The notes under the pieces: generated by a model
The model's input: only the letters and a program-made list of their open reading frames with translations
Database searches by the model: none
What the model was told of the DNA's origin: nothing
Made by a program: the position numbers and the translations under genes
Part shown: in pieces, positions 1-28,103 of the stretch
Position numbering within the stretch: position 1 is the first letter of the stretch
How the letters are laid out: each line of letters begins with the position of its first letter
Source: Gammaproteobacteria bacterium
GTDB taxonomy: Bacteria; Pseudomonadota; Gammaproteobacteria; RBG-16-57-12
DNA length: 64,000 nt
Assembly (NCBI GenBank): GCA_021647245.1
Contig: JAKIVC010000003.1
Coordinates: 1 to 64,000, forward strand
Direction: 5' to 3'

Positions 1-125
1 CATTTTGAGTCCATTTTTTTGATCGTTTGAGGCGAATATTGAGCATATTCAACGAAAATGATCGGAGAAATGGGCCTGAATGGCTTTTCCGCAGTAGATT
101 CACCCTAAGTCCGACAGCCTCCTAG
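1..125. repeat. Palindromic interspersed repeat, copy 1 (left end outside window)
   Basis: This is the right three quarters of a ~167 bp interspersed repeat also found at 4208-4374 and 27933-28073. The centre of symmetry is at about position 42, where GAATAT (34-39) pairs with ATATTC (45-50). The right end carries CCGACAGCCTCCTAG (111-125), matching the right end of copy 2. By symmetry with copy 2 the left end would lie about 41 bases before the window. Internal sequence is almost the same as copy 2. No coding potential is visible inside. Confidence 0.85.
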
Positions 126-4207: not shown

Positions 4208-4374
4208 CTAGAAGGCTGTCGGGTTTAGGTGATCGTAGCGAGGAAAAACCACTTTAAGTCCATTTTTTTGATCATTTGAGGCGAATATTGGGCATATTCA
4301 ACGAAAAGGATCGGAGAAATAGGCCGGAATGGCTTTTCCGCAGTAGATTCACCCTAAGTCCGACAGCCTCCTAG
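4208..4374. repeat. Palindromic interspersed repeat, copy 2 (complete, MITE-like fold-back element)
   Basis: This complete copy is 167 bp and is bounded by CTAG at both ends (4208-4211 and 4371-4374). The outer ends are inverted repeats: the left end CTAGAAGGCTGTCGGGTTTA matches the reverse complement of the right end (CTAGGAGGCTGTCGGACTTA) with three mismatches in 20. The complementarity continues inward, e.g. GGAAAAACCA against the reverse complement of TGGCTTTTCC, CCATTT against AAATGG, GATC against GATC, to GAATAT (4283-4288) / ATATTC (4294-4299) around a five-base loop. The centre at 4291 is the exact midpoint. No reading frame spans it, so it would need a transposase from elsewhere. Whether CTAG is a target duplication or part of the element cannot be decided here. 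Confidence 0.9.
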
Positions 4375-26750: not shown

Positions 26751-27087
26751 TGCTTTACACCCCCTAACGGGTTAACCCATCAATGTAGTGACCAAACCAA
26801 CCATCACATCCCGAGTAATATAAATAAGACCACCTGCCTTAAATATAGTTTAGAAATGCCTAATTTTCCTCACATTTTTAGGCTATTACACAGATAAAAT
26901 CACACCGTTTCACTCCACACGACAATCAAAGGGCAAATTTGAAAGCCAAGCTAAATTGATGGTAAAATATCAATTAGTTATGCTTTTTTAACCAGCTAAA
27001 ACCTGTCAAAAAACCAAGAATAGGAAAGGCCAATGGGTTTAGCTAAATTCAAGCTTTATTAACCAACAACAACAAGGAGATATGCTA
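26751..27087. other. Divergent intergenic region, antiporter operon / mscS
   Basis: These 337 bases separate the first gene of the antiporter operon (-) from mscS (+). The stretch is AT-rich, especially 26820-26990, and has no open frame on either strand that looks like a gene. It should hold both promoters. A GGGTTAACCC palindrome sits at about 26769-26778. A candidate + strand promoter is listed separately. Confidence 0.6.
26956..26984 (+). promoter_or_regulatory. Candidate promoter for mscS
   Basis: TTGATG (26956-26961) and TATGCT (26979-26984) are separated by 17 bases. An inverted repeat ATTGAT...ATCAAT (26955-26974) overlaps the -35 element and spacer and could be an operator. The transcript leader would be about 95 bases. 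Confidence 0.4.
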
Positions 27088-27936
27088 ATGGACGCTTTAA
27101 CCGGCCAACAAGCATCGGATATTTTAAATGTATATTTGATCCCCTGGGGGATCAAAATTATCACTGCCATTGCAATTTTCATCATCGGTCGCTGGGTTGC
27201 GCGAGCACTTACCAAGACTGCCGGACGCGTCATGGGGAAGAGTGGTGTTGATGAAACCCTGAGTGACTTTCTTGGCAAAATCATCTACGCCCTCTTACTG
27301 ATTGCGGTCATTATTGCGGCCCTTGAGCAGCTTGGCGTCAACACTACCTCGGCGATTGCCATCTTTGCTGCGGCCGGTTTAGCCATCGGCATGGCGCTTA
27401 AAGACACGCTCTCCAACTTCTCTGCTGGCGTTATGCTGATTCTATTCAAGCCTTTTAAAAATGGCGACTTCATTGAGGCGGGCGGCGTAACGGGTGTGGT
27501 TGAAAAAATATCGGTCTTCAGCACCATCATGCGCACCGGTGACAACAAAGAGGTTATCGTACCTAACTCCGGCATATATGGCGGCACCATTACCAACTAC
27601 TCCGCCAAAGAGACCCGCCGTGTTGATATGGTTTTTGGTATCGGTTATGACGACAACATCAAGCAGGCCAAACAACTGATTGAACAGATATTGAATGCCG
27701 ATGAGCGAGTGCTTAAAGATCCCGCCCCCACCATTGCAGTGGGAGAACTTGCCGATAGTAGCGTTAATATCAACGTAAGACCCTGGGTAAAGTCAGCCGA
27801 CTACTGGGGCGTTTACGCCGACACGCTAGAGAACGTAAAAGAGATTTTTGATGCCAACGGCATCAGCATTCCCTACCCACAGATGGATGTACACAACCCA
27901 ACTGTTCAAGCAGAGACCCCTGAAAAAGCGGCCTAG
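27088..27936 (+). CDS. mscS: Small-conductance mechanosensitive channel (MscS)
   Basis: The protein has 282 residues. Three N-terminal membrane segments are followed by the pore-lining TM3 pattern (AIFAAAGLAIGMALKDTLSNFSAGVMLILFKPF split across about 90-125), then the beta domain (GDFIEAGGVTGVVEKISVF, PNSGIYGGTITNYS) and the C-terminal alpha/beta domain. It opens under membrane tension to release solutes on osmotic downshock. The AAGGAG at 27074-27079 favours the ATG at 27088 (8-base spacing) over the one at 27082. The stop TAG is part of the CTAG that bounds palindromic repeat copy 3. Confidence 0.95.
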   Translation: MDALTGQQASDILNVYLIPWGIKIITAIAIFIIGRWVARALTKTAGRVMGKSGVDETLSDFLGKIIYALLLIAVIIAALEQLGVNTTSAIAIFAAAGLAIGMALKDTLSNFSAGVMLILFKPFKNGDFIEAGGVTGVVEKISVFSTIMRTGDNKEVIVPNSGIYGGTITNYSAKETRRVDMVFGIGYDDNIKQAKQLIEQILNADERVLKDPAPTIAVGELADSSVNINVRPWVKSADYWGVYADTLENVKEIFDANGISIPYPQMDVHNPTVQAETPEKAA

Positions 27937-28073
27937 GAGGAGGCTGTCGAACTTAAGTGATCGTAGCGAGGGAAAGCTATTTTGAGTCCATTTTTTTGAT
28001 CGTTTGAGGCGAATATTGGCATATTCAACGAAAAGGATCGGAGAAATGGGCCGGAATGGCTTTTCCGCAGTAA
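27933..28073. repeat. Palindromic interspersed repeat, copy 3 (right end lost)
   Basis: The left end CTAGGAGGAGGCTGTCG starts within the mscS stop codon and has three extra bases relative to copy 2. Inward sequence then follows copy 2 closely, through GAATAT (28011-28016) and ATATTC (28021-28026), up to TTTTCCGCAGTA at 28072. After that the expected last ~31 bases, including the right inverted repeat, are missing and the sequence passes into a terminator hairpin. The loop is one base shorter than in the other copies. Confidence 0.85.
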
Positions 28074-28099
28074 AGGCCGGGCATTTACCCGGCCTTTTT
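28072..28099. terminator. Bidirectional intrinsic terminator between mscS and murI
   Basis: AAAGGCCGGG (28072-28081) pairs with CCCGGCCTTT (28088-28097) around a six-base loop and is followed by further T residues. It serves mscS on the + strand and murI on the - strand. Confidence 0.88.
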
Positions 28100-28103
28100 C
28101 ACT

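Follow-up and report, generated by a model that had tools for sequence, protein, structure and literature searches.

A CTAG-flanked fold-back element and its copies

At 4208-4374 of the window, by which we mean the whole 64,000-nucleotide stretch of DNA analysed, lies a palindrome of 167 bp, and it raises the question whether such an element is a pair of transposon ends with an incidental hairpin between them, or whether the hairpin itself has been kept for what it does. This copy, copy 2 of the window, consists of 159 bp plus a CTAG on each side (4208-4211 and 4371-4374, both established from flank reading of the copies in the own genome), and on the plus strand its GTAGCGAG-bearing arm comes first. 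Inside the CTAGs lie the left terminal inverted repeat (4212-4229, plus strand), here AAGGCTGTCGGGTTTAGG with the consensus GAGGCTGTCGG[AG]CTTAGG, and the right one (4353-4370, minus strand; GAGGCTGTCGGACTTAGG), located by the end-motif scan. Between them, the alignments A1 and A4 described below place two conserved features on the plus strand: internal loop 1 (GUA versus AGUA), with its 5′ side TCGTAGCGAG at 4233-4242 and its 3′ side CGCAGTAGA at 4339-4347, and internal loop 2 (GAGGC versus AACGA), which together with the apical stem-loop occupies 4275-4307 (TTTGAGGCGAATA..TATTCAACGAAAA). Folded as single-stranded DNA, 4208-4374 reaches -26.8 kcal/mol against -16.2 ± 2.8 kcal/mol for shuffled sequences (z -3.75), an energy equalled by 0 of 200 shuffles, and the genome consensus of the element folded as RNA reaches about -100 kcal/mol. 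The fold energy and the flanks bear out the original prediction of a 167-bp fold-back with CTAG at both ends, and its further claim, that the two halves are complementary from end to end, holds in so far as the element folds over its whole length, but the arms are incompletely complementary and contain conserved internal loops. There is no ORF of 100 aa inside the element, which like a MITE is short and without a transposase gene.

The three interspersed copies anticipated in the window were all found. Besides copy 2, copy 1 (1-125, plus strand; 94% identical) is cut off by the contig start, the window beginning at base 1 of contig C3, and copy 3 (27933-28073, plus strand) carries a repeat of 3 bp on its left and is missing about 26 bp on its right. 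The left CTAG of copy 3 supplies the TAG stop of the ORF at 27082-27936, and its incomplete right end abuts a GC-rich terminator-like hairpin with a T run (window 27933-28100). From three copies in one window a high genomic number had been expected, and the own genome (2.57 Mb) indeed holds about 50 or more, with 72 candidate copies, 40 of these scored, and about 54 left ends at two mismatches or fewer. The true copy number is probably higher, because several copies sit at contig ends, and the element accounts for many contig breaks in these genomes.

In the own genome, 31 copies were read together with their flanks, and 16 of them have CTAG on both sides, the outer flanks being otherwise unrelated; among the other 15, nine have a second repeat joined at one end and most of the rest are off by one or two bases. 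In a Chromatiales MAG (L085), located via the flanking helicase gene, the orthologues of its neighbouring genes have no element between them, the intergenic DNA there being too diverged for reading the exact target site. The clearest intragenic insertion among 92 sites examined is the copy in genome G003 (L035), which splits an ATPase-like gene whose 392-codon frame is restored on dropping the element and one CTAG. The element is thus short, without a transposase gene, bounded by IS-matching terminal inverted repeats and a target-site duplication, and dispersed in some 50 or more copies with an empty orthologous site, and the suspicion that it is a non-autonomous, MITE-like fold-back is supported.

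A second repeat of about 147 bp was seen in the same genome (G000 loci L141-L153, e.g. L018 1667-1813). Among its 13 full-length copies, 11 are fused terminally to the 167-bp element, with the identical junction CCTCCT/GATATG. It joins either element end, in several subfamilies, as if the element end were a preferred insertion site, and one section, a palindrome of 76 bp flanked by CTAG, also occurs free-standing (L158, L159).

Ends matching those of IS1182-family insertion sequences

The original prediction had proposed looking for an IS with matching ends, and one is present in the own genome. A transposase search found it intact at G000:C24, with a length of 1594 bp and the ends CTAG followed by CAGCCTGTCGGGCTT and CTAG followed by CAGCCTGTCGGACTTA; its product of 453 aa scores 375 bits with NF033551 (IS1182 family; cutoff 270) and also matches DUF772 and DDE_Tnp_1. 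The host gene is SulP-like, as judged by eye from the translation, and without the IS and one CTAG it forms a continuous frame of 665 codons. The end pattern common to this IS and the element is CTAG followed by CAGCCTGTCGG[AG]CTT, with agreement at 13 of the first 15 terminal bases; the 2 differences count against the reading proposed below. Near-identical ends are found in the IS1182 relatives of other genomes, whose elements and ISs have SAGCCTGTCGGACTT in common: type I ends, CTAG then [CG]AG[CT]C[CT]GTCGGACT, are those of the relatives in G093, G152, G343, G138, G176 and G278. A more distant IS1182, in G112, has type II ends, CTAG followed by GAGGCTGTCCGAGAA. Like the element, IS1182-family ISs (NF033551; DUF772 plus DDE_Tnp_1) have the terminal repeat SAGSCTGTCGGACTT or GAGGCTGTCCGAGAA and a CTAG duplication; unlike them, the element has no transposase and a dissimilar interior, and it is no simple deletion derivative of the IS that was found. 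Derivation of the interior from IS1182 was rejected, as only the ends match and the subterminal IS sequences differ. The end-only matches that were read, in search of an autonomous form having the whole subterminal motif, were incomplete or short derivatives.

Across 274 genomes, the element is present in 18 of 42 with a strong IS1182 match and in 49 of 232 without one (odds ratio 2.8, p 0.005), a comparison of non-independent genomes that is uncorrected for relatedness; a strong match is lacking in 49 of the 67 element-bearing genomes, which weighs against IS1182 as the partner. The shared ends suggest that the element could be mobilised in trans by an IS1182 transposase. A second IS1182 copy of the own genome, incomplete, is joined to a gene that by eye appears to encode an IS200/IS605-type TnpA (G000:C52:1-2500; L137).

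One hairpin core across genera and end types

A scan of 369 gammaproteobacterial genomes found the exact end motif in 35 and gave 0 matches for the reversed control pattern, and facing end motifs are found repeatedly at spacings giving 166-169 bp. When 274 gammaproteobacterial genomes from 221 genera were searched with a covariance model, 67 of them, in 56 genera, were found to carry the element, and in a phylum-wide sample 53 of 319 genomes carry it; outside the class these belong mainly to one family, and at least one other class besides Gammaproteobacteria has the element. The length is nearly constant across genera, at about 165-170 bp. Type I ends (..CTGTCGGACTTAGG) are found in 46 of 53 distinct rows and type II ends (..CTGTCCGAGAATAG) in 7, the core being identical in kind, and both types occur together in G001, G055 and G078; each end type corresponds to a different IS1182 lineage, and one core is found with both.

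A plasmid search returned one carrier, a conjugative plasmid of Pseudomonas sp. MPC6, and no plasmid match when another variant of the element was the query; the E. coli genomes and phages searched gave no match, and a pattern scan of viral contigs found no element. On the MPC6 plasmid (L120, 3164 onward), the right CTAG of a type II element is common to a second CTAG-flanked end, CAGCCTGTCGAACTTGAG, which probably belongs to an adjacent IS. The complete genome G124 (L316-L335, L396-L435) carries an abundant repeat ending in TTGGTGCAATATCCGGG followed by CTAG, with 46 matches in 400 kb at two mismatches or fewer; 28 of 40 G124 elements lie less than 100 bp from it, and its CTAG serves many of them as target. 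Longer variants, with an insertion of about 75 bp in the arm beside the GTAGCG motif, were seen at L180 1496-1734 and at L450 (G258).

The structure of the core is conserved. In alignment A1, whose 26 elements were picked by sequence similarity or end motif and not by internal structure, 39 of the 60 base pairs have at least one compensatory double change, against 12-20 in slid controls, 94.0% of cells are paired, and the alignment scores 0.399 for covariation, against 0.169 when shuffled and 0.05-0.12 when slid by 1-3 columns. The hairpin is the same in alignment A4 (20 elements of the phylum sample), with double changes at 43 of 60 pairs and a score of 0.538, values to be read with the reservation that A4 was retrieved with the structural model, is not fully independent and has inflated pairing and G-U. 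At pairs with a Watson-Crick majority, the core of A1 has G-U and A-C in the ratio 46:20 and its ends in the ratio 22:11, and in A4, subject to that inflation, the ratios are 58:9 and 18:5; the five non-Watson-Crick majority pairs of A1 are all G-U, the only such kind that the folding program accepts. This excess of G-U over A-C at varying pairs suggests that the strand that folds is the GTAGCGAG-first strand, as RNA or, less probably, as single-stranded DNA.

These data bear on the simplest alternative, a plain MITE of which the ends alone are needed and the palindrome is a by-product, its arms matched by quasi-palindrome correction. Template switching lets long inverted repeats correct their own sequence, so that matching changes in the two arms can arise without selection on the fold, and the covariation does extend into the terminal repeats. 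Several genomes contain shortened forms of 57-104 bp that keep both ends, and one 104-bp form without the apical half is found at 3 loci in G124; therefore, movement does not depend on the apical half, and the core is not required in full. However, correction should remove mismatched loops, yet GTA/AGTA and GAGGC/AACGA (TCGTAGCGAG opposite CGCAGTAGA; TTTGAGGCGAATA opposite TATTTAACGAAAA) persist, conserved in sequence, in dozens of genera and with both end types; moreover, the length is kept constant, and the excess of G-U over A-C is unpredicted by arm correction. We therefore consider a plain MITE unlikely.

The folded strand and comparison with known systems

A conserved RNA gene had been named as the finding that would speak against a mobile element. 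The structure is indeed conserved, but the repeat that carries it is mobile and its copies occupy unrelated sites. Transposition could still have spread a structured RNA that works for the host (3′-UTR stabiliser, processing site or sRNA), a proposal made for YPAL in Yersinia, and the great stability of the hairpin, the one-strand G-U excess and the positions of copy 2, which begins 14 bp past a stop codon, and copy 3, which provides one, are consistent with such an RNA. Against this stand the unrelatedness of the sites and the orientation of the copies to neighbouring genes, which shows no bias (12:11 in the own genome, 8:7 in other genomes and 11:11 in G124), and at the sites examined for gene orientation divergent intergenic regions are not avoided. 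Random gene orientation and occupied divergent sites make cis-regulation of host genes unlikely as the selected function, and we regard a host-function RNA as quite improbable.

Alternatively, the hairpin may work as DNA, folded in single-stranded form (on the lagging strand, as a cruciform or in HUH-type recognition), which would entail a bias in replication strand. The raw count of G124 elements oriented with and against replication is 36:15, which becomes 26:14 when tandem copies are collapsed (p about 0.08, non-significant for G124 by itself), and G278 and G229 jointly lean in the same direction, with replication, at 14:6; GTAG at the inner hairpin foot, as in REPs, is a lead towards the same reading. 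The own genome, however, is without replication-strand bias (18 of 39), and the ends with their CTAG duplication are typical of a DDE element, so that action as DNA seems distinctly unlikely.

Based on these findings, we propose, with a probability of roughly 70%, that this is a selfish non-autonomous element of fixed design with IS1182-type ends, whose folded strand, of one polarity, aids the element's own persistence. First, the outer 18 bp or so would be the recognition ends for CTAG-targeting DDE transposases of the IS1182 family, and a transposase made elsewhere in the cell could move the element into new CTAG sites, duplicating CTAG. Between the ends, a hairpin of about 125 nt, with helices held by pairing rather than by sequence and with two conserved internal loops, would be selected for its fold in one particular strand, most likely as RNA transcribed by read-through and less likely as single-stranded DNA at replication forks or during transposition. 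The fold would probably benefit the element, e.g. if it draws in a host or transposase factor or softens the harm of insertion, and would not serve the regulation of a single host gene. More tentatively, and with somewhat less than an even chance of being right, the core may be a functional structured RNA or single-stranded DNA whose mobile element has swapped the ends of one transposase lineage for those of another with the fold preserved, and would represent an unrecognised class of structured selfish elements in about a quarter of the gammaproteobacterial genera sampled.

In conclusion, copy 2 belongs to a mobile family with IS1182-matching ends and, beyond what was originally seen, this family is conserved in structure over dozens of genera and combines one core with two kinds of transposon end. 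Bacterial MITEs are usually regarded as decaying IS ends confined to a handful of close species. In this family, a single 167-bp design with compensatory changes and conserved loops spans at least 56 genera, more than one class and two sets of transposase ends, and this persistence suggests that selection acts on a selfish element's folded molecule; the family is large enough for testing whether the interior of a MITE has a job. The view that no named family has this sequence stood: Rfam gave no match in the window at the gathering threshold and, when relaxed, only weak matches, nearly all to microRNA-type hairpins, which we discount because any long hairpin draws such matches. A literature search, with subscription papers mostly and ISfinder outside its scope, found no description of the sequence or of a comparable IS1182-linked family, and an earlier description is possible.

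Among known systems, the prokaryotic MITEs RUP and Correia/NEMIS resemble the element in being short, multicopy and hairpin-forming with IS-like ends, and for RUP mobilisation by IS630-Spn1 has been proposed. RUP and Correia/NEMIS have TA at their ends (PMC2229807); the element differs from them in its CTAG duplication and in a core structure conserved over dozens of genera. YPAL/RU-2 of Yersinia and Erwinia (168 bp) is likewise interspersed, hairpin-forming and of similar length, and YPAL has internal rather than terminal inverted repeats and duplications of 3-26 bp (PMC2229807); membership in YPAL/RU-2 was rejected, since the inverted repeats of the element stand at its very ends and its CTAG is fixed. 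With REP/REPIN sequences the element has in common its palindromic form, its intergenic location and GTAG at the hairpin foot; unlike REPs, which are 20-40 bp long (PMC3733652), it measures 167 bp and has DDE-type ends.
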